Part shown: piece by piece, positions 4,856 through 32,908 of the stretch
Layout: every line of letters starts with the position of its first letter
How positions within the stretch are numbered: the stretch's first letter is position 1
Origin: Agarophyton chilense
Taxonomy: Eukaryota; Rhodophyta; Florideophyceae; Gracilariales; Gracilariaceae
Reading direction: 5' to 3'
Assembly (NCBI GenBank): GCA_030374765.1
Contig: JARGXX010000060.1
Span: 1-32,908, forward strand
DNA: 32,908 bases
The notes under the pieces: model-generated
The model's database searches: none
The model's input: only the letters and a program-made list of their open reading frames with translations
What the model was told of the DNA's origin: nothing
Position numbers and translations under genes: made by a program

Positions 4856-5518
4856 TCATCATCATGAGGGCCGCTGAAATAGGTTTCCCATGTTAGCAAC
4901 AAGAAGGAGAACAAACACACCAGGTCAACGTAGCGCGCCGCGTACCTCCAAATCGCAACCCACTCACCCGCCTACCCTCCACCCCACGCTGCATCACCCA
5001 TCGCTCCCCTCGCTCTTCGCTTGCTTGCGCATGACCACAAACAGTTTCAAGGCCCCAGATCAACATAGAAGACGTACTTCTCAATCGCAAGCTGGTCAAC
5101 CCGTCACTACCCACACCGCACCCCATCACTAAACGCCCTGGTCGTGCTCCGCCCGCTCGCGCACAAATAGAAACAGAGTCAGCACTGGTGAAACGCACGC
5201 GCAATACCACTTCTCACGCACCTAGAAAACGCGGAAGGTCCACAAGGTCCAGAAGACATCATATCACAGGATCTCAAGATCCCACAACAGCTCATCCGGC
5301 CAATACTCACAATCAAGACAAGTACACGCCGCCGCTCAAAAATATACAACTTTGAATATTTTCATTCCAACCCACTTTCCAAGCCACATATGCGCCGTTT
5401 CTGTCTTGCCACACGACTTGTGAGTGTCTCTGGCGCATCACTTGACTTTGGTGGGTACGCCAGATAAGTTTATACTCTCCCCACCGTCCTCGTCGTGCAT
5501 CTTCCTCACTTCCAGCCT
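4856..5518. other. Gene-poor CT-rich leader region
   Basis: No convincing protein is visible on either strand. A further donor/branch-like pair occurs on the minus strand (CTGAC at 5182-5178, AGGTGCGT at 5223-5216), so the array to the left may continue here in decayed form. The right part is strongly CT-rich on the + strand, as expected upstream of a fungal gene. Confidence 0.35.
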
Positions 5519-5525
5519 GTATATA
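5519..5525 (+). promoter_or_regulatory. Candidate TATA box of the transposase gene
   Basis: TATATAG lies 83 bp upstream of the ATG at 5608 and is followed by a CT-rich stretch, the usual arrangement for a fungal core promoter. Only position and composition support it. Confidence 0.3.
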
Positions 5526-5607
5526 GTATCCCCCTCTCTCCTCGTCCTACGTCTTTTTCACCTCCCCGATTTACTTTCCGAGATCGCGCGCAGGCACCCC
5601 CCACACC

Positions 5608-8600
5608 ATGCAGCCTTCTCGCTTCCCAAGGTGCACCTTCCAGACAAAAGGTCATACCTCCCTTGTCCAACACCAGCGCCGGTGTCGCTACCGCACCACC
5701 TGCAACGCCTTCCTCGCCACCACCCCCAAAAGATGGAACTCAATTCCCACCACGCACGAAGCGCCCACGCGTCCAGACCGTAGAAACCCGCTCCGTTGGC
5801 ATCTCCAACGCCTTTCCAACATCTTTCCGCTGGTAGAACAGGACGACTACCATTCGAGCCAGCTCGCTCTGGCCATACGCTCCACAGACGCCGCCCACCT
5901 TCTCAACGCTTCTTTTCGTTGCCATTCTCCCAGCCCTCGCCCAGTCGTGAAGCTCCATCCAATCGTCTCCTACATCTCCTTCATCGCCACCAAGCTCGGC
6001 AAACGCAAAGCCGACGAACTCATTACCCTCCTCAAGGCCCCAACTACTCCCAAACACTTATTCAACAGGTTACCTCCGTCTCCCACTGCCTTCAACTTCA
6101 TTCCAAACTGTTCGAGGAAACTGTCGGCTCCATCGGCTTCAAATTCACAACCGTTCGTCACAATCCCTCAAACATCACCGCAACTCTCTACCTCAAAAAC
6201 CCCGTCGATGCCCTTCTCTAGCAACTTCGCTACGCCACTCGCGCTAACACCTTCTTTCACCCCATCAGACAATGTTATTCAGATGGTTCTCCTGCACTCG
6301 CTCATCCCATGGCTTCAAAACTCGGCAGTTGTGTTTATCCGGACCTCAAACACCACAACCTCTGCTCTCAAGACCCAGATGTTATTTGGCACAACGCGGA
6401 CATCTCTGGCATGAAATCTTTCATCGGCTTCATCCAGCTCTACTCGGGCAAGTCTTCCACCTCCCTGAAAAGCTCCTCTATCACCTCCTACCCCCTTCAC
6501 ATCACCCTCCTCAACTTTTCAGACTCCTTCCGCCGCCATTGCATCTCCCGCAACTACACCCTCCTTGGCTACTTTCCCACCTCGTTCGACGCGTTTTCCT
6601 CCCCATCCGACGAGTAATCCATCGAAGGCCACCTTCTTTCTTCAGCCCTCAGCCGCACAACCCGATTGAAACTCATCCAAGAATCTCTACAAACCATCCT
6701 CGAACCCCTCGCTGCAGTCGCCCTCAAGGGTTTCCCTTTCCGTGATGAAGACCAGGTCATTAGACAGTGCCACCCAGTCATCGCAAACTATGCTGCAGAC
6801 ATCCCAGAAGCAAAAGACATCCTCGCCATCCTACACGGCACAAACCCATCCAAGCCGTGCCACAGATGCCTATCACCTCGCTCCGACCTCAACCTCCACC
6901 TCACTTCCGTATCCCCTTGAAATATTTCCCACACCCGTCACACCAGATCCGTACACGACGCCCTTCTCAAGGATGCCAACGACGTCGAACAACTTCGCCG
7001 ACCGCGCGTAGCAAGAACTCTCAGAGACCAAGCAGCATCTCTCCTCCGCACAAACTCCCTCTCCGCGTACCACTCCTTCTTCGAAACATACCCTCTTCTT
7101 AATATATCCCCACTCCTCAGCCCTTACTCTATCTTCTCCTTCGAACCCCTTGACAATTTCCATCTGGGTATCTCCAAGCTCGTCAAACTGGCAACCATCG
7201 AACGCTTGAAGTCCGACAGCCTCTTCACTACTCTCGCGTCCTCCAACGGCTCCTCGGAATCCTTTAAATCCATCCGAAGCTCCCTTCTGACCCACGCAAA
7301 CAACATCCTCGCAGATATCGAAGCCAACATCTCCGCACACGGACTGCACATCGAATTTTCCACACCCGAAAAGGGTACATACCTAAACGGGTTCTACACC
7401 TTGGACGGCATCAAATGCATGCTCGAGGCAAAAGACTACCGCGCTGTCGACATGGTCTCACCCTTCATAGGTGCCTTCTTCGACCGTTGTTGCGGTGAAG
7501 TTGACACAGCTCCCATCACCTCCATCTTTACAGCATACGCAGACCTCTTCACCGCCGCACTCTACAACAACACCACCTCAGAATGAAGAGACCAACGACT
7601 TTACAACCTCCAGGAACTCATCAATTACTTCAAGTCTCTCTGCGTCTCCGTCCTCGCCCCTTTCCAAGCTTCTCACTTCAGAACACTGAAGTTCCACCTT
7701 CTAGACCACATCATTGCTGATATTGATCTATACGGAGGTCTTCAATTCACTGACGCCGGCATCTACGAACATGCACACCTCCTCTTCAAAAACCACTATC
7801 GACGAATATCCCGAAGATCTTCAACCGCTCACAGAGAAACACTCGACGCAATCCAGCTCGCAGAATGCTTCCGAAACTCAACCGCCATTCCCCATCACAT
7901 TTCCTCCTCCTCAAACTCCTCCTTCCGTCATGCTCGACGGTTTTCCTTGGTCCGCGACGGTACCACCGTGCTCTTCCGCGACATCATCACTGCAAAGAAG
8001 TACCTCCGTGCAAACCAAAACTGCTCCAATGCCTCTCTCTCAAACAGGTTCACCTCTTTCACCCTTTCTTTCATCCCCCAAATCTCACGCGACGCCATTT
8101 CACCCTTTCACGATCTTTGCCTCGAAGCTATCGGACTCTCTTCCTCTTCCCTGTCTCTCTCCTTTCTTACCTTCTCCCTGGTCAACTCCGCCTACATCCC
8201 CAGCGGATTCACCCTCGCCCTACAAGACGTCGACCAAACATTCAACTGCATCCGCTTCAGAGAACCACCAGTCCCCGTCACACAGCGCATATTTGCCACC
8301 TCCACCTTCGGTCCTTCCAAACTTCCAAAGTTCTCTCACATTCTCGTCTCCGGTACTCCACCACCTAACTGCAACTTCCCCACTGTTTGGGTCTGCAAGC
8401 TCCTCGCCCTTCTTTGCTTTACCAAAAAAGATGAAAATCCTGACGAACGCGAATACGCTTTCGTCCGCTTCTTCGAACTCACAACTCCCCTCGATCACAT
8501 GGATGAAACCCTGAAGTACATCACCCTCCGTTTGGCAACAGACGATGAACAGGACCACAATATCCCCCCCGCTGGAAACAGATTCCAACGCTCTGGCTCC

Positions 8601-8789
8601 TATGTCGCACCCTGGTTCGGTCTCGTTCCCTTCTCCGCCATCCTCAGTTCCGTCCATCTTGTCCGCCAGAACTACCCAGCACGCCCTTTCTTCCCGCCCC
8701 TCCCCTGGCATGAACATCGCTTCTCTATCAACAGATTCTACAGCGACCCACGAGCGAGAGCTTGTTTCTCTACAAAAGAATCAACTTGA
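5608..8789 (+). pseudogene. Plavaka/KDZ-like DNA transposase, inactivated
   Basis: This is a large cut-and-paste type transposase of the kind widespread in Agaricomycetes. It opens with a C2H2-like finger (CTF...GHTSLVQHQRRC, 5632-5690). Recognisable blocks follow: the block ending YSGKSS (about 6435-6460), where the family usually has a Tyr-Ser/Leu-Asp motif, so the expected acidic residue is Gly here; YPLHITLLNFS (about 6490); a block with ADIPEAKDILAILHG then PCHRCLS (6795-6880); LDNFHLG (about 7149); a block starting FHLLDHIIADIDLYGG (about 7692-7740) with GIYEHAH and an Arg-rich run (7758-7820); and a C-terminal HEHRFSINRFYSD (about 8710-8750). After a frameshift near 6060 the reading stays in one frame to 8789, interrupted only by stops at 6219, 6615, 6918 and 7584. 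The minus-strand accessory ORFs end 34 bp downstream. I am confident it is a transposase; the Plavaka assignment is from memory of family motifs. Confidence 0.75.
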
Positions 8790-8823
8790 AGCAAATGAAA
8801 CCCATATTCTGATATTAAAGTTA

Positions 8824-9780
8824 TCAATCATCAAAAATATCTAGTTCACCTCCGCCTTCCACCCCCTCCCCATCTCTCTCCTCCCCTTCCTCTTTCGCCT
8901 CCCATATTTCTTTCTCCTCCGCTAACAACTCCGTAAACTCGCGTTCTTCAGGCATACAACGTCCGACGTAGCAATCAAATACATACCCTAGAAAAGTAGT
9001 CATCTCCTCCAAAAACTCCTCGTAGCGAACACCCAGATAGACCAGCTGGTTCGAAGGCATCCAAAACGCAACGGTCCCTTCACGTTCCTCATTTCCCAGC
9101 ACTTCAGTCGGGTCCTCATCCTTCACACCATGGTTCACAAGCTCCTCTCCGTACTTCTCTTCCACCTTCCTTCTCGCTGTCCGTAAGATATCCTCCACAG
9201 CCACAGGCAGATGCTTCGCATACAGTTCCGAAAACAGCATCTGTCGCTTCCCTCCTCTACCCATCTCCTCATCCAACGCCTCTACCACAGATGCAATCCC
9301 CGCATCCAAGCGGGCCAGATGCATCACACTTCCATCCACATACTGTGTCTCTCCTTCCTTCCACGGTTGCTCCACATCGTACCCCATAAACTCTCTCAAC
9401 ACCTCCACACTCAATCCGTTCTTGAAGCACAATTCATCAGGTTCATCCTCGTACTTTGTCGAGTTCACATCGTACCCTGAAAAACATAGGTTCTCCATCT
9501 TGTCCATCCTCCATGCAGATATGACGGGCTCCCCATTCGCGGCTTTCGGGAACAACTTCTCCCGAGCCTCCATCTTCTGCTCTTCATACAACACATTCAG
9601 TTCTTCATCATCCTCGTTAAGAGGTTTTCTAGCAAGTAGAGTATATCCCAGACCCAAAAACAACCTATCCCTCGCATTCCTTTTCCGCACCCCCACAGCA
9701 TCACTGAGAGCCTGTTTCATCCGCCTCCTCAAACACGTATCCCTCCTCAACTCCTCTTCACACTGCTTCTTCATCCCCAT
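8824..9780 (-). pseudogene. Transposon accessory ORF, C-terminal part (unknown function)
   Basis: A 318-residue charged, Glu/Lys-rich soluble protein with no domain I recognise. It ends in an acidic tail (about the last 50 residues, closing LDIFDD). The same frame is open upstream of the ATG to about 9890, where it reads LHSVFSGG and ELENPI before an in-frame TAG near 9804. It overlaps the ORF to its right by 10 bp in another frame. I therefore read it as the C-terminal half of the protein encoded at 9771-11642, separated from it by a frameshift near 9880 and one stop. It converges on the transposase with a 34-bp gap, which ties it to that element. It is long and free of internal stops. Confidence 0.6.
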
Positions 9781-15675: not shown

Positions 15676-16473
15676 CTAGCACTGTCTGTGAGAACTTTCT
15701 GATTGGTGATTCTTCGACAAGCCGGGTGCGGGGTTAGTTGGGGACAGGGTTGCGGCAGTGGTGGAGGGGAAGTTGGTGCGGGGATTAGTTGCGGACGGGG
15801 TTGCGGCGGTGGTGTAGGGAGAGTTGGTGCGGGGGTGAGTTGCGAGCGGGGTTGCGGCGGTGGTGGAGGGGAAGTTGGTGCGGGGGTGAGCTGGGGACAG
15901 GGTTGCGGCGGTGGTGGAGGGAGAATTAGTGCGGGGGTTAGGTGGGGACAGAGTTGCAGCGGTGGTGAAAGGGCAGTTGGTGCGGGGGTTAGTTGGGGAC
16001 AGGGTTGTGGTGGTGGTGGAGTGGAAGTCGGTGCGGGGGTTAGTTGCGGACAGATTTGCGGCGGTGGTGGAGGGAGAATTAGTGCGGGGGTTAGGTTGGG
16101 ACAGGGTTGCGGAGGTGGTGGGGGGAGAGTTAGTGCGGGGGTTACTTGAGAACAGGGTTGCGGCGGTGGTGAAGGGGAAGTTGGTGCGGGTGTTAGTTGC
16201 GGACGGGGTTCCGGCGGAAGATGATGTTTTGGTGAAGGTGGTACAAACGTGGTTTGTGAAAGCTGAGTTGACGTTTCCTGTGGATTCAGCAAGAGATCGG
16301 GGAAAGGGTGTTGCCCTGAGGAGGGCGCTGGAGAGAATGTGGATCACGGTGACGACGGTTGAGGCAAAGTAAAATGAAGTTTGGAAGCAGTCGGTGCGCG
16401 GATCCCAACAAGATGGCGAGTTGGAGGGTTGGCTTTCAGAAGGAGGGTGCGTAACGTGCAGCGTTGGATGCAC
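15676..16473 (-). CDS. ORF built on a 51-bp minisatellite (17-residue Pro/Thr-rich repeats)
   Basis: The 265-residue frame has an N-terminal part with a hydrophobic segment near residues 30-55 (FYFASTVVTVIHILSSALL), then about nine to ten repeats of the type NPRTNxPxTTAATLSxx, 17 residues each. Such Thr/Ser/Pro repeats are typical of O-glycosylated fungal surface or wall proteins. However, another minus-strand frame across the same repeat is also open for 217 residues and the + strand is open too, because a 51-bp unit without stops keeps every frame open. Coding status is therefore uncertain. It may instead be a non-coding minisatellite. Confidence 0.35.
   Translation of the reverse strand: MHPTLHVTHPPSESQPSNSPSCWDPRTDCFQTSFYFASTVVTVIHILSSALLRATPFPRSLAESTGNVNSAFTNHVCTTFTKTSSSAGTPSATNTRTNFPFTTAATLFSSNPRTNSPPTTSATLSQPNPRTNSPSTTAANLSATNPRTDFHSTTTTTLSPTNPRTNCPFTTAATLSPPNPRTNSPSTTAATLSPAHPRTNFPSTTAATPLATHPRTNSPYTTAATPSATNPRTNFPSTTAATLSPTNPAPGLSKNHQSESSHRQC
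15715..16210. repeat. 51-bp G-rich minisatellite, about 9-10 copies
   Basis: Unit starts marked by GTGCGGGG are spaced about 51 bp apart (15726, 15776, 15827 and onward). The + strand unit is G-rich, with runs such as GGCGGTGGTGGAGGGG that could form G-quadruplexes. Units differ by a few substitutions and no long indels are visible. Confidence 0.85.
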
Positions 16474-21302: not shown

Positions 21303-22765
21303 TTAAGGTTCCAATTTTGTACTTACTGGTGTGTGCGTGCCACGGGGCATATCCCGATACTTCGGAAGCTGTCCGTGATTAGCGTACGCAACCGCCGGCG
21401 GTGGGAGATCAGGAGCTTTCTCCTCCGCTCGAGCCATTGGTGGCGGTTCACTCTCCCCAGAGTCACTTGGGCTTTTGCCTTGACGTTCCTTCGCACTTGC
21501 TTCCTTAGTTCTACCAGATACCTGGACTTCCACTTGCGGGTCAGGCGCGACTTCAACGCGATCACGCGATACATTTTCAAAGTCCTCACCTGTCTTGATG
21601 ACCACTGTGTCTTCATCAAGGTCCACCACTTTGAAGGGTCCGGCCGCTATCGGCAACAACTCATGACGAGATTCTTCCTGTTTGTCCGGTCTTTCGACTC
21701 GCGCGAAGACGTGACCTCCTACTCGGATTGCCGTATTTCCTCTTCGCCTTCTGGCGTCATAGTTTCGATTATAGCGAGCTTGCGTCTTTGATAACTCCTT
21801 AGCGGCTTCTTCCGCTCTGGCCTTCAGGTCATTCCTCCATTTCAGATGGTGTTTAACCGGGGTCGGCGCGTCTAATTCTGTCTCGTCGTCGAGCGCAACC
21901 GGTAAAGCCGGAGATTTACGTGAGAGCACGAGGTCGAACGGTGCCGTCTTTGTAGAGGTATGAACTTGCGTATTGTACGCGTAGCACAGAGTATCTGTAA
22001 ACATATCCCATTCTTTCGGGTGGTCCGCGATGTAGTGTCGTAATGCTGCTATCAGCGTGCGGTTAAAACGCTCCACCTGACCGTTGCATTGCGGATGATA
22101 GGTCGGGGTAAACACGTTTGAAATGCCCATAATGCGGCAAACATTCTGAAAGAACTTCGCAACGAATTGCTTCCCATTATCTGATAACAGAACTTCTGGT
22201 GGTCCGTATATAAATACCCAGTGTTTGATAAACGCCTGTGCGATTACGGCTGCGGTTATCCACTTCAGAGGCACAGTACGCACTAGCTTCGAGAAGCGGT
22301 CGGTGATTACCAATAGGTAGCGATAACCTCGCCTTGAGCGAATCAATTCCCCTAGGATGTCGATACTGACGTATTGTAAAGGCGCTTTTGCCTGGAATAA
22401 CCTCATCGGTTTCCGCTTCCTGCAAAGCTTCACGCGATTCTTGGCACATGTTTTACACAACCTCACTGTAGCATGGCAGTCCATTGCCAAAGTAGGCCAG
22501 TAAAAATATCTTCTTAGTGTCATGAACAACTTCGTTTCTCCTGGATGACCAGACAGCCTGCTGTAGTGTGCCAGATGGAGTAGTCGACTCTTCAAGACGT
22601 GTGGAATCACGATTTGATCATGCTTTTCGACATGTCTTAACAGTATTCCTCGTGAATCGAGTGAAAAGGGGAGCTCCTCCCCCTCGTTAAGAGAGCGTAT
22701 CGACCCACAAAACGTATCGGCGTATTGCTCATTGAGGAGCTCACGTGTGTGTTCTCGGAATGCTA
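21303..22765 (-). pseudogene. Ty3/gypsy integrase fragment, truncated at its 5' side
   Basis: The open frame begins upstream of the first Met (22610): residues such as ELLNEQYAD and LPFSLDSRGILLRHVEKH are readable back to about 22750, where the element is cut. Counted from the Met at 22610, the HHCC zinc site is intact (H15, H22, C52, C55), and so is the catalytic triad (D84, D144, E180; D-x59-D-x35-E). A GPY/F-like module follows (GGHVF, GPFKVVDL). Protease, RT and RNase H are absent. Apart from the TAA at 21303 this fragment is undamaged, so it is younger than the copy at 1-3263, to which it is related but clearly diverged. Confidence 0.92.
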
Positions 22766-22997
22766 GATAAGTGTGCTAGATAGCTAGTTTTGTAGATAAA
22801 AAGCCAAAAAATCTGAGAATTTTGCAGATTGCGCTAGATCGGCACCTGAAAAAAAATTTTTGGGAAATAAGAACTCCATGCATCTTAGTGTTTTGACCAC
22901 TTAATGCAGTTTAATCTGCATTTGCAGTTTACTGGTCACTTTTGACCGCTCTAGTTGGAGATCCATACCAAGGCAGTCGTCAGTACCTTCTACCTCA
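22748..22997. other. Junction right of the second gypsy fragment
   Basis: TGTGTTCTCGGAATGCTAG begins at 22748 and resembles the sequence at 3264 over about 45 bp (roughly 70% identical, ungapped). AT-rich sequence and short inverted repeats around TGCAGTTTAATCTGCA (22905-22920) follow. No gene is visible. Confidence 0.4.
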
Positions 22998-23648
22998 TTA
23001 CTGGCCCTTTTGCTTACTAGGCTCCAGCATTCCACCGGGAGGGTATTTGAGGTTGAAGAAGTCCACCACCGCATTCTCAACCTCGTCCACCTCCCCACTG
23101 CTCAAGTTCCTCACACCCGGCTGCCCCACCACACACACATTCCCACCCTTCTTCTCCACATCCTTACCAACCCTCCTCTTCTTCAGCCGACTCTCTCCAA
23201 CTCCTCCCCCTTTCCATTCCTCTCTCCCCTTCTTCATCCCAGCCGGCTCCCCGAGTCTCCCTGGCGTCACCGGCGACCCTTTCGCTCTCCCCCTCTCCTC
23301 TCCCACCTCCTTCAACACCTTCCGCGCACCCCAAATCTTCCCCACCCCTTCCATGTGCACTTCCAACACCTTCACACGCCTCTTCAGTTCCTCATTCGCC
23401 CTGCACAGCTTCCCCATCTCCAGCCCCATGGGGATCCGCTCGACATCGCCAACCCCGCGAAAGCTATCGACAAGAGCCACCGCAAGCGCAAGCGCACTCA
23501 CCTTGGTGCGGCCAGTAGTACCCGCAGCCTCCCACACAGCACCCCCCCTCGAAAATCCTCTCGCCCACCTCCGGCCTTTTATCTCCTTTTTTTGACCCGC
23601 TTTTCGCGCGCGCTCGCCCAATTTCAGTACCCTCGTACACCCCTGCAT
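22998..23648 (-). CDS. Basic, purine-rich ORF with a short coiled coil, unknown function
   Basis: A 216-residue frame, rich in Gly/Lys/Arg/Glu. It holds a predicted coiled coil near residues 75-100 (KLCRANEELKRRVKVLEVHM), a basic cluster (RLKKRRVGKDVEKK) and an acidic-hydrophobic C-terminal motif (VDEVENAVVDFFNLKYPPGG). Its base composition (purines on the coding strand) and coiled coil recall the accessory ORF at 9771-11642. The first 60 residues overlap another open frame starting at 23679, so the true start is uncertain. It is divergent from the ketopantoate-reductase-like gene. A transposon accessory protein is a reasonable guess. Confidence 0.4.
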   Translation of the reverse strand: MQGCTRVLKLGERARKAGQKKEIKGRRWARGFSRGGAVWEAAGTTGRTKVSALALAVALVDSFRGVGDVERIPMGLEMGKLCRANEELKRRVKVLEVHMEGVGKIWGARKVLKEVGEERGRAKGSPVTPGRLGEPAGMKKGREEWKGGGVGESRLKKRRVGKDVEKKGGNVCVVGQPGVRNLSSGEVDEVENAVVDFFNLKYPPGGMLEPSKQKGQ

Positions 23649-23954
23649 CTACGCTCCGGATGCCCTTCACCCCACTCATTGCTCACTCACACACTCCCAT
23701 CCATATTGCTACACCTTCTATCATGTTCAGCGCTTCCTCACTACTCCCAATTTCATAGCCTTCTCATTTATAATAAATCACACTCATTCGTAACACAAAC
23801 CGCCGATTACTCATAAGCCCTCTTTCCCGTTATGACTTCCATAACAACACACACTCCTACACTTTTAACACAATAAACACCATTCAATATCATAAATCTA
23901 ACCTCCTTCCCAAAAACCCCTAACACCCATTCCTCCACAACCATACTCCTTCTC

Positions 23955-23961
23955 TATTTAA
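23955..23961 (+). promoter_or_regulatory. Candidate TATA box of the gene at 24040
   Basis: TATTTAA lies 85 bp before the ATG, followed by a CT-rich tract and an A-rich ATG context (CAATCAACATGG). Confidence 0.35.
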
Positions 23962-24039
23962 TCACATCTCCACACTCGCCACCCCCACCACTTCTTCAAT
24001 TCCAAGCACACCGCACTCCAAACACCTTTCGCAATCAAC

Positions 24040-24864
24040 ATGGCCGACTCTCTCACTGCCATCCCTTGCACCTCCGACCCAGCCGTTATTGTCGGCAGAG
24101 GCCGAATCGGCACTTTGCTTCGCAACAACGGCACCCCACAAGATGCTTTTCCCTCAACTCAAGAATTCATCTCCGCGCAATACATCCCCGACGGCCCCAT
24201 TTTCTTCTGCGGCAGAAATCATTCACTCGAAGACGTCATTCAATTCTGCCCTTCCTCCCGCAGAGAGGATCTGGTCTTCCTTCAGAACGGAAACATTCTC
24301 CCACTTCTTTCAACCTATGGGCTCCAAAACTGCACCAAAGCCGTTCTCTTCCTCGCCGTCCCCTCCCTTAACGCACCCCCCGAGGACGGTGTCACCCTCC
24401 TCAGTCCCCATGGTCTCACAACTGCCACCGGCAAATGGGCTCCCGTACTCGCCAATCGCCTCAGTACCACAGGCCTCACTTGTCATGTCGTCGACCAGCC
24501 CTCCTTCTCTAAAGATTACTACGAAAAACTCGTATGGATATCAGCTTTTAATCTCGTCGGCTCCTCTTATGGCTTTATCACAATGCACGAAGTTGCAGTA
24601 CAACACCGCACAGTCGTTTCAACCATAATGAAAGAGCTCCTCGCCATGGTCACATCCGAAACAGGAATCGCCTACAATACAACAGAAACACTCCAAAAAC
24701 TTCTGGCCCACGGAAAAACACTTACACAGTTCCCCACCTCGTTCTCAGACTTTGAGTTCCGGAACGTCTACTTCTACAACGTTTCTAACGCCCAAAAATC
24801 CATTGGAAACCGTGACCCCGCCCCTTTCCATACGAACTTCTTGAACGTCCTCCTCAATGGGTAG
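24040..24864 (+). CDS. Ketopantoate reductase-like NAD(P)-binding oxidoreductase (ApbA/PanE-like family)
   Basis: An intact 274-residue protein. It opens with a Rossmann nucleotide-binding loop (VIVGRGRIGTLL, residues 16-27). The blocks FCGRNHSLEDVI, DLVFLQNGNILP, LFLAVPSL, SPHGLTTATGKWAPVLANRL, GLTCHVVD and EKLVWISAFNLVG follow in the order typical of the ApbA/PanE-like family found in algae, plants and fungi. True ketopantoate reductase makes pantoate for coenzyme A synthesis. The members most like this one have no proven substrate, so I name only the fold and likely NADPH use. The usual catalytic Lys and Asn may correspond to K in EKLVW and N in AFNLVG. The start is supported by its ATG context. 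It is intact in a sea of broken elements and may be either a host gene or cargo. Confidence 0.75.
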   Translation: MADSLTAIPCTSDPAVIVGRGRIGTLLRNNGTPQDAFPSTQEFISAQYIPDGPIFFCGRNHSLEDVIQFCPSSRREDLVFLQNGNILPLLSTYGLQNCTKAVLFLAVPSLNAPPEDGVTLLSPHGLTTATGKWAPVLANRLSTTGLTCHVVDQPSFSKDYYEKLVWISAFNLVGSSYGFITMHEVAVQHRTVVSTIMKELLAMVTSETGIAYNTTETLQKLLAHGKTLTQFPTSFSDFEFRNVYFYNVSNAQKSIGNRDPAPFHTNFLNVLLNG

Positions 24865-24888
24865 TACTTCATTCATATACCCCTTCCA

Positions 24889-24894
24889 ATAAAA
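24889..24894 (+). terminator. Possible polyadenylation signal
   Basis: AATAAA lies 25 bp after the stop codon of the ketopantoate-reductase-like gene. Confidence 0.4.
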
Positions 24895-25279
24895 ACAAGT
24901 CCTCCTTTCTAAAGCATATGTCCATCTCCTTCGCTGCCTCGATAAAGACTGCTATCCGCACGACACCACGTCAGAATATATGAAACGATATTAAGAATTG
25001 CTTCGTACATCACAAATCATCACTACAACCACTCTTCATAAATCTTCCAACTTTGCAATTAAGTCTGTACCCAACAACCGCTCCTACAGCCTATCAAAGG
25101 TTTTCATTCATAACAATTATTCATACTCCGCGACAGAGATACGGCAACAACCTAACAACTACTTTGATCACTACATATATATATCCACCGATGACCACCC
25201 TACTTCATTGCGCTCAACATACTGTATCCAGTCCCTCACAAATACCTTTCTACACAACACTCTCCTCTCCTTCTCAAGC

Positions 25280-25624
25280 ATGCAGCGCTACGAAGCACGT
25301 CTTTCCCTACCCCCTGGTTCTTCTGTCCAATGCTCAGCAGCTGTGGATATTCTTCCACGACGAACGGTTATCACGATCGACGAAGTCCCTCAAATCAAAC
25401 TTCCAACCACCCAGAATGTGGTCGAAGTCAGAGGGTTCCAGAATCATATCACCGACGAGCTCATGGACGAGATTCGTGACATTTGTACGACCACCAGGAG
25501 GCTCCCCACGCGCAACTCTCTACAGCAGCAAGATACTCTGAAACAACTGTTCAAAGAGCGGTATCATATCGTTACCTATGTGCAGCGTACAAGGAAGACT
25601 AGCAAACCGGAACGCTTTTACTAA
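25280..25624 (+). CDS. Small unknown protein
   Basis: A frame is open from 24998, but the first 94 codons are low-complexity Asn/Ser/Thr/Tyr, as expected from an AT-rich untranslated leader. I prefer the Met at 25280, which gives 114 residues (start MQRYEARLSLPPG). The body is a mixed soluble protein with a possible beta segment (RRTVITIDEVPQIKL) and a basic C-terminus (RTRKTSKPERFY). I recognise no family. It lies in tandem between the ketopantoate-reductase-like gene and the membrane protein. Confidence 0.4.
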   Translation: MQRYEARLSLPPGSSVQCSAAVDILPRRTVITIDEVPQIKLPTTQNVVEVRGFQNHITDELMDEIRDICTTTRRLPTRNSLQQQDTLKQLFKERYHIVTYVQRTRKTSKPERFY

Positions 25625-25826
25625 GATTTTCAGTTAGCAAACACTCTTCACATCGACCTTAACGTTCACAATCACACTAACTACACTCTTCGGAGTTATA
25701 GACCCAGATCTGCAATATACGCTTCCATTCAGATTCAACTCTCTCCTTCGGTTCATTCTCATAACGCTATTGAGGTGTTCTATCTAAAGCCTGCTACAAA
25801 TTCTCATAATCGAAGGAGGCGTAAAA

Positions 25827-26464
25827 TGTATAAACGCGTTATACGGGTCTCTACAAACTACGCCGTTCAATCCAAACCAGCGATATACCTGGAAGAAACG
25901 AGCCTTTCTGGAATTCGGGGCTCTACTCTTACTCTACTCATCCCCCTCAACGCCATACTTTTCCTCGTTCACCGCTTCATTCCAGTCAGCGGTACCCTTT
26001 CATCAGACGTGAAGACAAATTGTATCGCCTTCTCCACAGGAGGGGCCGCAGTTGGCGCTTTGGCATATCTTCTCCAGCTTGTTTCTATATCCTTCTTTCC
26101 AGAGTCCTATCTTAACACAAAGTTCACAATGACCCAGGAACCATGGAGAACCTCTTTTATGAACCTCGTGCTTGGCGCCCTCTCCCACTCTTTTCAACAG
26201 GCTTTATTCATATCCAGTCCGGATGTAACCTTCCGACTACTCGGTATGTGGCTGTCGGCATGCACTTTCGCTGCACTCTCTTCAACCGCCTTCTCCACCT
26301 CTCGCATTGAGGGACCTGGTGTTTCTATACTGCTTGGTAACACAGTGGATGTCGTATTCTTGATATCTTCTACAGTTGTCATTCACTATGAGAAAGTGAA
26401 AGCAAGTGCTACTCTCACGCGTTTCAATCCAGTTGTTCAGGAGTTTCTACTGAAAGACAACTGA
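25827..26464 (+). CDS. Small multi-pass membrane protein of unknown family
   Basis: From the Met at 25827 the protein is 212 residues. Four hydrophobic segments are visible: LTLLIPLNAILFLVHRF, GGAAVGALAYLLQLVSISFF, LLGMWLSACTFAALSSTAF and ILLGNTVDVVFLISSTVVI. The segment between the second and third (MNLVLGALSHSFQQALF) is amphipathic. No signature motif is recognised. The next gene on the minus strand ends 81 bp away, so the two are convergent. It may be a host orphan gene or cargo. Confidence 0.5.
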
Positions 26465-26545
26465 TCACTATTACAAGAAAAGGGGACTACTCCACATACT
26501 ACCTCAAATTGTACTCTTTATTGTTCAATAGGTAACAGATACTAT

Positions 26546-27484
26546 CTAGTCGTCGTCGTCATCCATTATCATACCGCCGTCTTCATAGTCTCCATCTGTG
26601 TTATCCGAGTTGAGACCCATCCCAGGTTCATCATCCTCTTCTTCATACTCCTCTTCCCCACTTTCAACAACTTCCATTTTATAATCTTCATCCAACTCCT
26701 CATCCTCATCTACCTGGACGTCTTCATCATCACCCTTGTTGGAATCATCCTCTTCGAACTTAGGCCGAAATGCTGGTTGCCTATGCACTGCGTCCGGTAG
26801 CTTGTACCCATCCGGTACCAAGTACATGTAATACCTCATGCAAACTTCCTTAACCAATGCATCCTCGTATCCAGCTCCAGCATGAAACACATCTCCTCTT
26901 CCAATAAAAATGGAGTACGGCGGAATCCTGAACTGCCTCACTACCATCGTCCGAGACAGCCGCTTCAAGCTCCTGTCGTCGGGCACGTACATGTTATGTG
27001 ATCTCTCACAAACCCAAAGCATAAACGAACTCGCTCCCGACGCCATCATGAAGAACCCTGGAACCTCTCCGACGTTCTTCTCGGCATCGGTCAGTCCTCG
27101 AAAGTTCGTATGTAACACCTGCCTTGGACAGCCCTCCACCGTACATAGCACTCGCCCCCCTGTTTCAGGGGCATACATCCTCTTCTTCCCTGACCTGTTG
27201 TTGCACAACCGAAGAGCGGCCGCAATCTGTCCAAACCTCGCATCCAACAATGCCCTTTTCCTCATCATTAAAACGTTGTTCTCGTCCCCCTCCACAGAAT
27301 CCACAATCCCCACCTTCGTCGTAATGTACCGCCCAACTCCCTTCATTCTATCTCCAGCGTCTCTCTCCTCACCAGCGTTGATTATAGGGTCCCATTTCTT
27401 TCTATTCCCTTCAATCGTCAAGTCCGGCTGGTTCAAGAAAACCGTCTGGAAGAACTCTAGCAAAGTCCCAGTCACATCCCCCAT
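26546..27484 (-). pseudogene. 2-oxoglutarate/Fe(II)-oxygenase-like beta-helix domain with acidic tail (C-terminal part of a large fusion)
   Basis: Residues about 118-230 look like the core of a 2OG-Fe(II) oxygenase: RQVLHTNF (H125, N127), a hydrophobic strand block starting GFFMMASGASS, RSHN, IPPYSIFIGRGDVFHAG (H201) and MRYYMYLVP (R217). In active enzymes the first motif is HxD, so N127 may mean loss of iron binding or a mutation. The last 80 residues are strongly acidic (Glu/Asp runs closing with MDDDDD). The segment LLEFFQTVFL at the start is probably part of the same fold, preceded in the next piece by KGFCVLEEF. It joins the upstream reading through a frameshift in a run of five G near 27478. 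I see no TET/JBP signature. Confidence 0.5.
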
Positions 27485-28547
27485 CGAAGTTTACCCCCCT
27501 CTTCTTCGCCTCATCCGCCATCCCCTCGTCCGTGGCAAACTCTTCCAGCACACAAAATCCTTTCTCCATCAGCTCACTTCTCTTAGTCGCGAAGTACTCG
27601 CGGGCCAAGTCATCCCTCTCCATTGCTGCCAGCCATATCGCCTGCTCTTCATTCACAGGGTGGTTCTTCGTCGGTAGAATCACCCCAAGAACCGGTTCGT
27701 TCGTGGAACCCAGTTCCTTGTGCCTGTTATGAGCAGCACGCCAACAAACCGCATGGTGCACACTTTTCAAGTATTCTACCCTCAAGCACTCCGCCCTGTG
27801 CTTGTTCCGTAGGTAAAGCATCTGCATCCAGAGGTGCTGATGCTTCACTCCATTTTCACCCGCCGGCCACTCGCTCGGAAGTGCATTCACCAAGTACACC
27901 CACGACATACCCGACCCCCCCGCATACGGTCCCGCCCTCTTCAGCCCCTTCGGAACACCCTCCGGATTATTGTCTTCGAAGCCACGCATTTGCACACCCT
28001 CCTCCTCTTCATCCCCTACAAATGCACCCTGCCCCCCGTCATCATCCATTTCATCCTCACTCGATGAGAAAACATTGAGTACATGTTCCTTCAAGAAGCG
28101 CTTCAGCTCTTTCCTGCTCATCTTCTTGAACAAATCCACCACGTCAGCCGGTATTTGAGCAGCAGATGTGCCCACCGTCTTTCTCCTCTTCCTCTTCCGC
28201 TTTAAAGGCTGTTCATACTCGCGTTCATCATCACTAGTGACCACAGCCTTTCTCTTTCCCTTTCTCTGTCTAGGTTCCATCACCCTCTCACCCGCAGCAT
28301 CCAGCCCGCGCTCAGTACCTTTTTTAGTTCGTGTGATGCGTCTGGGAACCACGGTTTCCTGGTGGGGTACAGACTCCCCAGCACTAGACGAAGGAACATT
28401 CACAGAAGGTGGCAGCTCCACCACATCCTTCTCCGCACTTGGGGACGCCAGACTCAATTTCAGACCGCCTTCAATCCGCCTTTGTGCGATTTTCATCCTC
28501 TTCGACACCAACCCCGGCCACAACCGCTTCGGACCACTGAGCTCCAT
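27411..28547 (-). pseudogene. Middle part of the large fusion: basic linker and start of the oxygenase-like domain
   Basis: The first 130 residues are low complexity and basic, with several nuclear-localisation-like clusters (KRKRKRRK, RKGKRKAVV). A short helical block (VVDLFKKMSRKELKRFLKEH), an acidic patch (SSSEDEMDDD) and a folded-looking part with MSWVYLVNALPSEWP and LWMQMLYLRNKHRAE follow. The end (MEKGFCVLEEF) resembles the helix and strand that precede the core in phytanoyl-CoA-hydroxylase-type oxygenases. It follows in the same frame after a TAA at 28557-28559, and its own last residues (after about 27478) are out of frame. It is nucleus-directed in all likelihood. No catalytic role can be assigned to this part alone. 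Confidence 0.5.
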
Positions 28548-28556
28548 CTTCGCCGT

Positions 28557-29135
28557 TTACATGCAAAGGTACTCCCTTAAAGACACCTCGTTCTTTCGCA
28601 TCACAATTGTGCTGTCTAGAGCCTTCCCCGCCGTCAGACCCTTCTCCTTTCCCGCCCTTTCGCATAGTTGGAACATTCCTATGGCGCATTGGAAGAACTG
28701 CTTTCGCGTCTCCTGGAAACGTCCCATATTCCCCGTAGAACCCATCCTCACCCTCACATGTAGCTGCAAACAACGGATTGGGAAACGGAATATTTCCTCT
28801 TCGAGTCCTAACAACAAGTCACTCGACACATGCGCAAGCGTTAGCACTGGACCCTCCTTGCATACGTTCTCAAAGAACTCCAGGAGACCTTCGCTCCTGA
28901 CGAATTTCAACCCAAGAGTCGCATAGCGATTCAAGTGGCGCAAGCTGTAGATTCCTATAGCTTCGCTCGTCTTCAGCGCCCCAGCTATCCGTGTCGGAGT
29001 AAGGTCAGCCAACTTGGTTCTCTTATCGTCAATCAAGTTGCAAATGAAGGACACTGTCGAATGAACCTTGTCGGCGAAACTCATCTTCAACACATTTGAA
29101 CTCATTTCATTGAGTACATTACCAAGACCGAGCAC
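28557..29135 (-). pseudogene. Helical region following the ParB-like domain
   Basis: A 192-residue piece in the same frame as both neighbours, separated by a TGA at 29166-29168 and a TAA at 28557-28559. It reads LSLNEVLGLGNVLNEMS, then DLTPTRIAGAL, IYSLRHLNRYATLG and PVLTLAHVSSDLLLGLEEE, i.e. repeated short helices, as in the helical part that follows the nuclease-like domain in ParB-family proteins. I cannot tell whether it binds DNA. Confidence 0.45.
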
Positions 29136-29165
29136 TTCGTTCAGCGATAAAGGCTTCCGGTGCTT

Positions 29166-29882
29166 TCATCTCCAAAGAACGACATCAAGAGACCGCACAA
29201 TTTCCAACCACTTTCTCCCTTCAGAGGGATCATTCTTCAGATCTCGCAGAACCAAGACGCGGTGATGACCGTCAATGAGTATGACAGGCACCACTACCCT
29301 CCCATTGTGAACAATTTCACTGAAATCTAATTCCATTCCCCCGACGATGGCAACAGCAATCGACCCTGCCGACGCAAGCCAGCCAAACGTTTTGCACTTT
29401 GCCATCGTCGCCGCCTTGTGTTCCGCATTCACACTTCTGACAGTCTTCTCGGGGATTTGTATGTCATCTATGTCCACAATCAAGCGGAACTGGTCATAGT
29501 CTGAAGCAGAGATCTTTTTTTCCACGAGAGTCTTATCCACTTCCTGCGAAGGAACGGCATCGCAGTCATCGAACAACTCCAACTCGGGACCGGTGTGCGA
29601 ATCCCCGCGTACATTCACCGCTGACCCCACCTCCACAACATCTTCATCAGAATCATCCACTATCGTCACCCTCTTTTTCGGCTTGACGGGTTGCTTCATG
29701 GCCGGCGGCACTGTTGTTGGCTGTGCCCTCTTCCCCCTCAAAGGCGTAGCAGACTCCTTCGAGGGGGTCGCGCTTTTGGGAGTCTCCGGCCGAGGAGGCC
29801 CTGGAGTCAGCACAGATGAGACGCGTGTCATCATCGAGGTATCCCATGCGTATATACCTGTCGAAACCATATCCTTCAGCAA
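29166..29882 (-). pseudogene. ParB/sulfiredoxin-like domain within the large fusion
   Basis: The piece starts with the end of the domain shared with the accessory ORF at 9.8-11.6 kb (LKDMVSTGIYAWDTSMM). A Thr/Pro-rich and basic/acidic linker follows. Residues about 130-215 then resemble the ParB/Srx fold: LIVDIDDIQIP, EHKAATMAKCKTFGW, SIAVAIVGG, and the key strand-turn VILIDGHHRVLVLRDL with the G-x-H-R type motif at residues 205-208. In bacteria this fold serves CTP-dependent partition proteins and nucleases; in eukaryotes, sulfiredoxin. Here its activity is unknown. The piece ends at a TGA (29166) and continues in frame. A TAG lies just upstream of its first Met (29883-29885). Confidence 0.55.
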
Positions 29883-30232
29883 CTATGGCGGCTCCTCTGC
29901 TCCCTTGAAGGAGTACAGATACTTGGAGTTGATCCCCTCCTTAATTTCAGTCCTCCAGATGGCCACCAAGTCCTCTCCCGGCTTCGCAGACTCGCGCAAC
30001 GAATGGCCATGCATCGCTCTGCAAAGCGCCTTCCGGCCGCTCCACTGCCCCCAACACCTCTCAACTCCGCAGTGCCAACCATAGTACCCTTCTTCTTCCC
30101 TGTCCCATCCGCCAGGAACAACGCCACCCTATCCCCACCAGCCAGATTGTTTCCCCATGTAGCTTTTCGCAGAGTGGCGCGTGGAGTACCCCGCGGAGTA
30201 CCACTCGCTTTCGCTTTGCCTCGAATCATCAT
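29876..30232 (-). pseudogene. N-terminal part of the large fusion
   Basis: A basic, Gly/Thr-rich head (GKAKASGTPRGTPRATLRKA) precedes a possible strand pair (GDRVALFLADGTGKKKG). After about 30030 the sequence that aligns with the other accessory ORF lies in the next frame (AMHGHSL, DLVAIWRTEI, YLYSFKG), so a frameshift is needed there. The Met at 30232 is about 290 bp from the palindromic array, which would place that array at or near its promoter. Confidence 0.45.
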
Positions 30233-30383
30233 TTGAATCGGATCGTAGTCGGTCGAGGTTGCAAATGGTCGCAGAGCGCTTTGAGCCTTTTATGGTATAC
30301 AGACTAAGACGTATTAGATCGAGCTCCTTTGGTGGCGACTATCCGGAACACTCCCGAGAGCAGTTCGTTGCAATCAGCGTGAA

Positions 30384-30429
30384 CTACGTCCGCTTAGTTT
30401 CAACCTGAGCTACGTCCGCTTAGTTTCAA
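30384..30429. repeat. 26-bp-period direct repeat, two copies
   Basis: CTACGTCCGCTTAGTTTCAA occurs at 30384-30403 and again at 30410-30429 with no mismatch. It lies about 150 bp upstream of the Met at 30232 (minus). Confidence 0.7.
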
Positions 30430-30522
30430 ACTCAAGAAACTCCTTGTCTCTTTCCATCACAAACACGCCTATTGGCTTGGTAGGCGATACAAGAAAATAA
30501 TATTAAAAAATTAAAAATATCC

Positions 30523-31250
30523 TGACGGCCGACAGAGGTGCGCTCCGACTTCATCGGGGGTCCCGATGAAGTCCCCGCGCACCTCTGTCGGCCGACATAA
30601 TACATATAATTTTGTAATTTTTGGAACGCTCAGGTGTACACGGTGCACTCTGTCGGCCGACATAATACATATAATTTTGTAATTTTTGGAACGCTCAGGT
30701 GTACACGGTGCACTCTGTCGGCCGACATCTCAGAAACGCATCATGCGTGAGGTTATGGGGTATTTGTCGGCCGACAGGGGTGCCCTGCGACTGAAGTCGC
30801 AGCACACCCCTGGCGGCCCACAAATGGCCCGAATGGTGTCCCTACAACATGTTGGTGAATTGTCGGCCGACAGGGGTGTGCTTCGACTTCATCGGTGGAC
30901 CGATGAAGTCGCAGGGCACCCCTGTCGGCCGACAAATACGCCATAACATCACGCATGATGCGTTTCTGAGATGTTGGTCGACTGTCGGCCGACAGAATGC
31001 ACCGTGTACACCTGGGCGTCCTAAAAATTACAAAATTATATATATTAGGTCGGCCGACAGAGGTGCGCGGGGACTTCATCGGGACCCCCGATGAAGTCGG
31101 AGCGCACCTCTGTCGGCCGACAGAATGCACCGTGTACACCTGGGCGTCCTAAAAATTACAAAATTATATGTATTACGTCGGCCGACAGAGGTGCGTGGGG
31201 ACTTCATCGGGACCCCCGATGAAGTCGGAGCGCACCTCTGACGGCCGACA
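30523..31250. repeat. Array of 13 near-palindromic 12-mers arranged as a large inverted repeat
   Basis: The core TGTCGGCCGACA or a one- to two-base variant starts at 30523, 30586, 30651, 30716, 30765, 30811, 30861, 30923, 30983, 31048, 31111, 31176 and 31239. Spacing is 60-65 bp at the flanks and 46-50 bp in the middle. The spacers fall into classes. Class A spacers are hairpins (GAGGTGCGC...GCGCACCTC around GACTTCATCGGG/CCCGATGAAGTC). Class B (TAATACATATAATTTTGTAA..., 53 bp) appears twice on the left in direct orientation and twice on the right inverted. Class C contains GCATCATGCGTGA and its inverse. Class D is a second hairpin type with GGGGTGC/GCACCCC ends. The order is A-B-B-C-D-E-D'-C'-B'-A'-B'-A'. 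The array ends 173 bp before the ORF at 31424. Candidate roles are transposase-binding sites, a transposon end, or a two-way promoter. Confidence 0.9.
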
Positions 31251-31423
31251 GAATGCAACCAGGATAGCTGCGAAGTCGTTCCGCAACAACCGTTCTTCCG
31301 TGCGCGCTCCTCAACCATACTCACAATCTTTCCGTACCCACCCGCACCCACCCGCACCCGCTGCTCTCTTTCGCTCAGGCTCTCGTGACGACCGCCCGTG
31401 AGGTTGTTTGAACATGTACATAA

Positions 31424-32635
31424 ATGGCTACAGAACCCAAGAGAACTTCTTCATCGCCTGCGGCCGACACCTTCGAAATGGGTAAACTGTTTGGTACGGG
31501 GGATGAAGTTATCAGGGCGTGTCTGGATTTGCGTGATCGTTACGCATTAACGAGGCGGGAGGAAGATGAGCCGCGAAAAGTGGGGCACACTGCATTCATC
31601 GATTTCGCAATTGCCAATCGCCACATCCTACCGGAGACCGCGAAGTTTTTTTATACTCTCCTAGGTCCCGACCACACCAATTACACAGAAGATGAGCTCC
31701 GAGTTGTAGGAATGAGGGGCTCGAACTGTCAGAATTATTTCTCGGCGAGGTTGCTGGATATAAGGGATGGGGACCCAGATAGGCGCGTGAGGGACGTTTG
31801 GAACGCGTACGAGGCGGTGGAGTTCAAGGGCATCCCGAAGAATGTCACTTTGGCAGAGTTCTTCAAAGGTCTGGATACAACCCGAAAGAAGGCGAGCAAA
31901 AGCCGGGCTCCATTCGCGACCGACTTCCCGACAATGTTCCAGAGGTTGCTGTTCCTCATTTGTATTCAGTCGGTCTCTATGGAGAAGAGAAGAGTCTCCC
32001 GTAAGCGAATAAAGGGGGACAGAACCTACGATACGCCATTTTCGAAGGTGGCGATTTATGACAAACCAGTAGCTCAGCGTGTGGGCTTTGGTGTGCAGCT
32101 CGTCAATAACGCGTGGGACAGCTTCGCCCAGTATTTTGGATTCCCTGGCGTGGAATTCATGGTTTTGCCCTTTATCCATCTACGATATTCTGATATGCAG
32201 TTCCAGGCAATCGGAAACAGAAGGGATGGGTTCTCTCATAAGGACATGGTCCAACGACTCCTTCCTGGTAGAAACCGTACTTTATTGGAGGAGGATGTCG
32301 TCCCATGGGCGTGGAACCTGCCGGAGTACGTTGACACTCCACTTAGTATGTTGGCCAAAGAGTTTCTCGCTGACCTGCACAAAGTGGTGGTGAATGAGCA
32401 GCTTAACTCTATATCAGCTCCGGAAAGATGGGACGTTCTAAAGCCGTTTACATACACTTTGCCTGGAGTGTTTGCGGAGAGATTCGACTGCTTCTCGAAC
32501 TCTCTTATCTCTACCATCTCGAAACATATCGCCACTAAAGCTGCGAGGGAGTGTGGAGGTGTAAGTGGTGGCTGCAACAAAGGCGGAACCTACTATGGTT
32601 ATGGAAGAAGACGAAATAGAAGTTGTACCCCCTGA
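31424..32635 (+). CDS. Intact unknown ORF beside the palindromic array
   Basis: A 403-residue soluble protein with balanced composition and no low-complexity body. Notable stretches are HTAFIDFAIANRHILPET, FFYTLLGPDHTNY, FPTMFQRLLFLICIQSVSME, GVQLVNNAWDSFAQYFGFPG and WAWNLPEYVDTPLSMLAKEF. I recognise no domain. The C-terminal 25 residues (GGCNKGGTYYGYGRRRNRS) look unlike the rest. At 32560 the frame may shift, or an intron donor (GTAAGT) may lead into the acidic stretch in the next frame (VMEEDEIEVVPPEKD). The start at 31424 follows the palindromic array by 173 bp. Together with the transposase-like finger to its right it probably belongs to the same mobile element. Confidence 0.55.
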   Translation: MATEPKRTSSSPAADTFEMGKLFGTGDEVIRACLDLRDRYALTRREEDEPRKVGHTAFIDFAIANRHILPETAKFFYTLLGPDHTNYTEDELRVVGMRGSNCQNYFSARLLDIRDGDPDRRVRDVWNAYEAVEFKGIPKNVTLAEFFKGLDTTRKKASKSRAPFATDFPTMFQRLLFLICIQSVSMEKRRVSRKRIKGDRTYDTPFSKVAIYDKPVAQRVGFGVQLVNNAWDSFAQYFGFPGVEFMVLPFIHLRYSDMQFQAIGNRRDGFSHKDMVQRLLPGRNRTLLEEDVVPWAWNLPEYVDTPLSMLAKEFLADLHKVVVNEQLNSISAPERWDVLKPFTYTLPGVFAERFDCFSNSLISTISKHIATKAARECGGVSGGCNKGGTYYGYGRRRNRSCTP

Positions 32636-32748
32636 GAAAGATTCGGAGGCTCCGGCTGTGAAGGGTGGAGAGGGAGTGGAGGGTGGGACGGGAATGAGGA
32701 AGAGGAACAGGGTGTTGGTCAGCATTCTTCCACAGCTGGACCAAGTCG

Positions 32749-32908
32749 GTCGAATCTGAGTCGGTGGATATTCTGCCGCCTCACGACCTTACCTCTCTGG
32801 ATGATATAATGTCTCTCCAAAAGTACGAGTCGGAGATGGATAAGCACTGTCGAATGTACAATTGTACTTTCGAGAACCAGGGGAGATTGACGAGACATTG
32901 CGCAGCAA
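32749..32908 (+). CDS. Possible start of a second transposase (C2H2-like finger), cut by the window end
   Basis: In this frame the sequence reads a Leu/Asp/Ser-rich segment (DLTSLDDIMSLQKYESEM) and then HCRMYNCTFENQGRLTRHC. That resembles the finger at the start of the transposase at 5608 (CTF...GHTSLVQHQRRC): Cys, CTF, a small loop ending in Gly, Leu, His, Cys. If real, it is the N-terminus of a Plavaka-like transposase reading out of the window. The upstream exon or start codon is not clear, and an intron or frameshift near 32740 is needed to link it to the acidic stretch at 32565-32759. Confidence 0.35.

Follow-up and report, generated by a model that had tools for sequence, protein, structure and literature searches.

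Plavaka DNA transposons bearing TET/JBP genes and oomycete transposons bearing SET domains are already in print, and Plavaka termini are given as TGT..ACA (PlavakaA) or CATCA..TGATG (excerpts of PMC12730594). A protein of the Ectocarpus transposon Sola1-1 combines ParB-like and N4/N6 methyltransferase domains and was proposed to bind and modify its own transposon (excerpts of PMC12477816), so the idea of such transposon accessory proteins is not new. VANC motif arrays are known to evolve through tandem repetition (excerpts of PMC5735166). Here we describe a palindromic array in the red alga Agarophyton chilense, found in a window of 32,908 nt that is the whole of one contig (JARGXX010000060.1, hereafter C60) of the 79.8 Mb, 135-contig genome searched. 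This array makes up the intergenic region within a Plavaka-type DNA transposon of ~18.8 kb.

With the Plavaka elements presented in PMC12730594, this transposon shares a transposase profile match, short terminal inverted repeats and a 2-bp target duplication (5 of 6 copies), but its accessory genes encode a methyltransferase-SET protein and an unclassified 1228-aa protein instead of TET/JBP, and its outermost bases are CGTC.. rather than the TGT..ACA of PlavakaA. HarbingerS and Phytophthora MuDR, named in the same excerpts, likewise have a SET domain in a DNA transposon but another transposase, and SET is joined here to a DNA methyltransferase. Sola1-1 offers a second case of a bacterial-type N4/N6 methyltransferase on a giant DNA transposon (PMC12477816, in part); the present element, however, combines that domain with SET, adds a candidate target array and has no confirmed ParB. 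Like the VANC/VANDAL system, the array is a dense, element-specific and non-coding set of motifs in which repeats are gained and lost, whereas VANC motifs are short, same-oriented and carried on a MuDR transposon, and the array described here is a putative binding target (PMC5735166, in part). Stem-loop-forming repeats over ~0.7 kb of a 20-kb element also characterize TNPA-bound CACTA/EnSpm transposons, but those repeats are subterminal while this array is internal save in deletion derivatives (PMC2613891, in part). A literature search, whose scope lay outside Petroll et al. 2025 on the red alga Bostrychia, found no description of this array or of its module grammar, nor of the parallel in a second family reported below.

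The array occupies positions 30523..31250 (no strand assigned) and contains 13 near-copies (≤2 mismatches) of the 12-mer TGTCGGCCGACA, eight of them exact and none found elsewhere in the window. Their spacings are 63, 65, 65, 49, 46, 50, 62, 60, 65, 63, 65 and 63 bp, in agreement with the 46-65 bp noted in a sequence-only reading of this DNA, and none of 100 dinucleotide shuffles reached 13 matches (mean 1.32, maximum 4). Exact TGTCGGCCGACA occurs 487 times in the genome, eight of these in the window, versus 5 occurrences of a backwards-read control pattern. The spacers fall into five classes, not the four first counted: the hairpins H and h, an AT-rich P, Q and a single central C, ordered H P P Q h C h Q P H P H.

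Module H lies at 30535..30585, 31060-31110 and 31188-31238 (no strand), and module P, which includes GTGTACAC, at 30598..30650 and 30663-30715 on the minus strand and at 30995-31047 and 31123-31175 on the plus strand. Q is shortened at 30728..30764 (−) and has its mirror copy at 30935-30982 (+); h is likewise shortened at 30777..30810 (no strand), with a mirror copy at 30873-30922, and C sits at 30823..30860 (+). Two spacer classes had been taken for hairpins, correctly: in consensus, H has perfect arms of 12 bp and h arms of 16 bp, inverted repeats matched by 0 of 2000 shuffles for each module. Consensus Q holds ACGCATgATGCGT, which was equalled in 51 of 2000 shuffles with loops ≤1 and in 148 of 2000 with loops ≤9, and the dyads of C (138 and 420 of 2000) and P (757 and 1667 of 2000) are within chance. 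The inverse spacer order around ~30840 is present in the window, with mirror arms of 144 bp that are 94% complementary, but it fails as a rule for the family, as described below. A 173-bp leader (31251..31423, +) runs from the array to the ATG of the right-hand ORF.

The left ~10.2 kb of the transposon fills 22744..32908 (no strand assigned) and runs past the end of the window and contig; a whole copy on contig C10 spans ~18.8 kb. The left terminus CGTGTGTGTTCTCGGAATGCTAG (22744..22766, +), which reads CGTCTGTG... in the other copies read, corresponds in inverted form to the right end CTAGCATTCCGAGAACACTGACG of other copies, and 27 of the 42 DNA matches to the left part of the element start at window positions 22743-22745. 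Alignment of the termini of the copies shows terminal inverted repeats, the element ends being CGTCTGTGTTCTCGGAATGCTAG and CTAGCATTCCGAGAACACTGACG, with the window copy beginning CGTGTG. Ends were sought for eight copies and both were readable in six, the C10 right end being taken from L066, a stretch further right in the same copy; the right ends of the copies on C12 and C98 were absent from the predicted place. The same dinucleotide lies outside both ends in five of these six copies (TA four times, CG once), the exception, on C71, having TA and CG. TGTTCTCGG/CCGAGAACA sit 6 bp inside the termini, and the common outer CGTCTG/CTGACG resemble element sequence. L066 contains a 524-aa ORF and a 1087-aa ORF on the minus strand, of which the latter, outside the window, matches the Plavaka transposase profile PF18759 (1.2e-22, 81 bits versus a cut-off of 26.3).

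Terminal inverted repeats together with a Plavaka transposase reject an LTR reading, and the view that this is no simple MITE or LTR holds. In full-length copies, ~7.8 kb separate the array from the left end of the element and ~10 kb from its right end; for them, the suggestion that it is a transposon end finds no support. Two further ORFs of the window lie within the repeated element, one of 274 aa (24040..24864, +) and one of 229 aa (25775..26464, +) that is hydrophobic by eye, neither with a Pfam match above cut-off. Viral contigs, scanned once, yielded 190 pattern matches, of which none was a relative.

Several observations concern the surroundings of individual copies. The DNA left of the transposon end (window 22650-22743) is common to contigs C60, C69 and C70, which on account of this flank probably hold one insertion, as duplicate contigs or haplotypes. 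Retrotransposon reverse transcriptase and integrase frames lie at window 697-1848 and 21303-22610; since the transposon end adjoins the integrase frame, a Gypsy-like element may have been the target of the insertion. A tandem repeat of 51 bp (9.7 copies) occupies window 15725-16217, and in the C10 copy two matches at C10:918486-922376 overlap by 93 bp, a small internal tandem duplication.

Neither gene flanking the array is intact in the window, although one had been described so. The left gene (26546..30232, −) is a frameshifted remnant split into several ORFs. The right one is a 403-aa ORF (31424..32635, +) corresponding to about the first 372 residues of a 1043-aa methyltransferase-SET protein before it goes out of frame; both catalytic domains fall past the window, and the contig stops before the methyltransferase domain. 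An intact copy (locus L065) has a 1228-aa ORF on the minus strand (L065:883-4569), the array (4876-5648) and a 1043-aa ORF on the plus strand (5822-8953), which, together with the fixed position in 29 of 30 copies detailed below, upholds the placement of the array between two oppositely oriented genes of a mobile element.

The 1043-aa protein carries an N6/N4 DNA-methyltransferase domain (PF01555, 3.4e-18) and a SET domain that is barely above its cut-off (8.2e-5, 23.4 bits versus 22.4), and its gene is located inside the repeated element. The frame at 31424 has 133 genome matches, 44 of which span residues 1 to at least 371 at 90-100% identity; among these 44, eleven lie in the 1043-aa frame and match without a stop. 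All 21 metagenomic relatives of the protein bear a precomputed methyltransferase label and 7 of the 21 a SET label, and DPPY and FAGT motifs are kept in an alignment of 20 rows. A wider search with an alignment returned 0 at 1e-10 among 7999 candidates scored, a figure that marks the limit of that search, since the single-sequence search had found the 21 relatives. The N-terminal 370 residues matched none of the profiles searched.

For the 1228-aa protein, no match was found among Pfam, NCBIfam and PHROGs profiles or PDB sequences, and no relative at E ≤0.001 among 8000 candidates scored; in its own genome it has 39 matches, all copies at 94-100% identity. Comparison of the 1228-aa and 1043-aa proteins found no common domain. 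The ParB-like protein of the sequence-only reading thus went unconfirmed by the Pfam, NCBIfam, PHROGs and PDB-sequence searches. The ParB candidate goes back to a short motif spotted by eye in the left protein, LIDGHHRV, which resembles ParB-like domains.

Variation among copies was read at the 30 best-scoring of the 133 right-ORF matches (L035-L064), allowing ≤3 mismatches per palindrome; this sample was picked by similarity to the window copy and its copies are not independent. The array ends 172-173 bp 5′ of the ATG of the right ORF in 29 of the 30, the remaining copy (L047) having no array, and palindromes number from 0 to 21. Eighteen arrays follow the form [H P<]n Q< h C h Q> [P> H]n save for minor losses and share the mirror order of the window (type 1), and eight have all P modules in one direction and no mirror (type 2; four of the eight displayed in full). 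Three are reduced to a single hairpin flanked by two palindromes. Module C points right in seven of the type-1 arrays and left in eleven.

Array content rearranges faster than the adjoining coding sequence. Where the right gene starts, copies L037, L038 and L039 are identical across ~1150 bp, yet have three different arrays, and another pair of such copies, L042 and L043, hold 14 versus 2 palindromes. L043 is a young copy, with no deviation over ~1150 bp and the 1043-aa frame, yet has those two palindromes only. Deviation from the majority sequence is 0.67% in type 1 versus 1.30% in type 2 (p 0.010), and nine of 18 type-1 copies versus none of eight type-2 copies are in the 1043-aa frame (Fisher p 0.023); palindrome number and copy divergence do not correlate (rho −0.20, p 0.29).

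Per site, 460 palindromes (277 exact) deviate by 4.5% on average and 377 standard-length modules by 1.6-4.5% (377 of 418, excluding 35 with indels and 6 unclassified). The palindromes are therefore not specially conserved, although part of their 4.5% stems from fixed variants at terminal and central sites. Transitions in the 12-mer amount to 33 across its four CpG positions versus 34 across its four other C/G positions; CpG transitions being no commoner than the others, there is no sign of 5mC at the 12-mer.

Used as a genome query, the array DNA had 268 matches spread over many contigs, and such a number of related arrays rejects an assembly artefact. The expectation that array clusters always accompany homologues of both flanking ORFs stood in part: among the matches listed, 43 array positions comprise 19 with both genes within 3 kb, 12 with the methyltransferase alone and 12 with neither, a tally in which the gene lists are incomplete and some positions come from one cluster. 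All four gene-less loci read (L001, L025, L031 and L068) derive from the same transposon, and each retains its left terminus at a distance of ~0.3-0.7 kb from the array. Three different left junctions occur among them, and two of the four also keep transposase-side sequence. As the derivatives were found by array search, selection for the array in them is not demonstrated. A satellite or MITE nest as the sole account is rejected by the fixed place of the array in 29 of 30 gene-anchored copies and by the left terminus in all four gene-less loci read. At L068 (C3:203500-208000), the array has expanded into inverted arms of 1262 nt that are 98% complementary.

A second family of genes carries the same two domains, methyltransferase and SET, at ~25-27% identity to the window frame in longer stretches and 38% in a whole-protein alignment. 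By place and frame, 29 hits were assigned to it, and C4:1099193 was recognised as one of its copies; 21 of the 29 hits are no more than 22 kb away from a contig start or known end, and five of the other eight are on contigs without a known length. Upstream of the second-family gene at L067 (L067:281-6001, within C106:346500-352500), the one locus where such DNA was read, stand tandem units of 773 bp, every one of which contains the palindrome ATTGCCTGCAGGCAAT and a hairpin whose arms measure 57 bp. The 773-bp unit has 358 genome matches, some of which run up to the final bases of C16 and C106. This single locus gives the principal independent hint that genes of this type are accompanied by palindrome-hairpin repeats. 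At a third, fragmentary locus beside telomere-like repeats (L084, C135:1691900-1697400), no palindrome array was found in 5.5 kb; there, long telomere-like repeats of the TTTAGGGG type (L084:1700-3800) adjoin a 541-aa ORF that by eye resembles a Penelope-type reverse transcriptase.

A binding array for an element-encoded protein and a two-way promoter, both proposed from the sequence alone, stay the leading candidate readings, the promoter in its simple form being disfavoured since the outward-facing P modules that it requires are missing in the eight type-2 copies. The reading we favour, to which we give slightly less than an even chance, is that the array is a cis-regulatory platform where an element-encoded protein binds and marks the element's own promoters. 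Lying between back-to-back genes, one of which encodes domains of DNA- and histone-methylating type, it is a good candidate for such a self-marking spot. The fixed distance to the right ORF, the divergent ORFs of the intact copy, the two domains, the 487 versus 5 genomic 12-mers, the fast array change and the L067 units with another palindrome and hairpin were counted in its favour, as were two precedents, the tandemly evolving VANC motif arrays (PMC5735166) and the self-binding and self-modification proposed for ParB-like/methyltransferase proteins of algal transposons (PMC12477816). Against it were counted the palindromes without extra conservation, the two palindromes of L043 and the lack of any in L047, the missing correlation with divergence, the lack of a 5mC sign, a second-family parallel from one locus, L084 without an array and a SET match barely over its cut-off.

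Several of these points also bear on other explanations. The array might be a passive hypervariable repeat in an ordinary promoter region, expanding and contracting by recombination without a dedicated binder; the range of 0-21 palindromes, the central inversion, the non-mirror versions and palindromes conserved no better than modules fit this, but the strict module order, the H and h hairpins beyond chance and the palindrome-hairpin repeat beside the second family as well make it rather unlikely. That read-through yields long double-stranded RNA and small-RNA silencing of the family is very unlikely: folded as one strand (DNA parameters), the array reaches −397 kcal/mol versus a mean of −119 in 20 shuffles, and the inverted arms of the L068 derivative also speak for it, but the eight type-2 copies are without mirror symmetry and an Rfam search of the window gave 0 matches. 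Least credible is a parS-like partition site with the left protein as ParB, since an integrated element has no need of partition and the profile and PDB-sequence searches returned no ParB match; in its support stand the presumed ParB-like resemblance of LIDGHHRV and the Ectocarpus transposon protein that joins ParB-like and methyltransferase domains (PMC12477816, in part).

A role in transposition itself, as the Plavaka counterpart of CACTA subterminal repeats on which a TNPA-like protein assembles or blocks transposition, moved inward by acquired genes, appears unlikely, though it has several points on its side. The element has a Plavaka transposase, and Plavaka is placed beside EnSpm (excerpts of PMC12730594); a soybean CACTA of 20.5 kb has 24 subterminal repeats over 732 bp that are able to form 12 palindromes (excerpts of PMC2613891); and the gene-less derivatives have the array close to the left terminus, with their three left junctions. 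However, the array is internal in full-length copies, retention in derivatives found via the array is not evidence of selection, and the young copy L043 has two palindromes.

Under the favoured self-marking reading, the array would be the intergenic cis-control region between two divergent accessory genes of a giant Plavaka-type transposon, with its closely set palindromes and hairpins as docking sites for a dimeric DNA-binding protein that the element itself most likely encodes. Candidates for this binder are the methyltransferase-SET protein, through its unclassified N-terminal part, or else the divergent 1228-aa protein. The methyltransferase-SET protein, once recruited, would modify the promoter region common to both genes, in its DNA and in the histones nearby, and these marks would set the expression of both genes and plausibly keep the element expressible; a self-repressing role may be the alternative. 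We infer, rather than observe, the identity of the binder, the base and the histone residue that carry the marks, and the direction of the effect, activating or repressing. A keep-open role would fit the location of 6mA in several unicellular eukaryotes at permissive, H3K4me3-marked regions, in work on AMT1, an enzyme of another class (excerpts of PMC12695648).

More tentatively, and with some doubt, we propose a transposon self-marking system in which one protein writes both a bacterial-type base mark and a histone mark and has its own fast-rebuilt palindromic addressing array, the second family near contig ends being the same kind of writer with another palindrome. If the array addresses the methyltransferase-SET protein, this would be a compact example from nature of a mobile element that directs chromatin writing by DNA sequence. 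Whether transposons stay expressed via bacterial-type 6mA or 4mC would then become testable, and the two families with their different palindromes would provide a natural pair for mapping protein part to DNA site.
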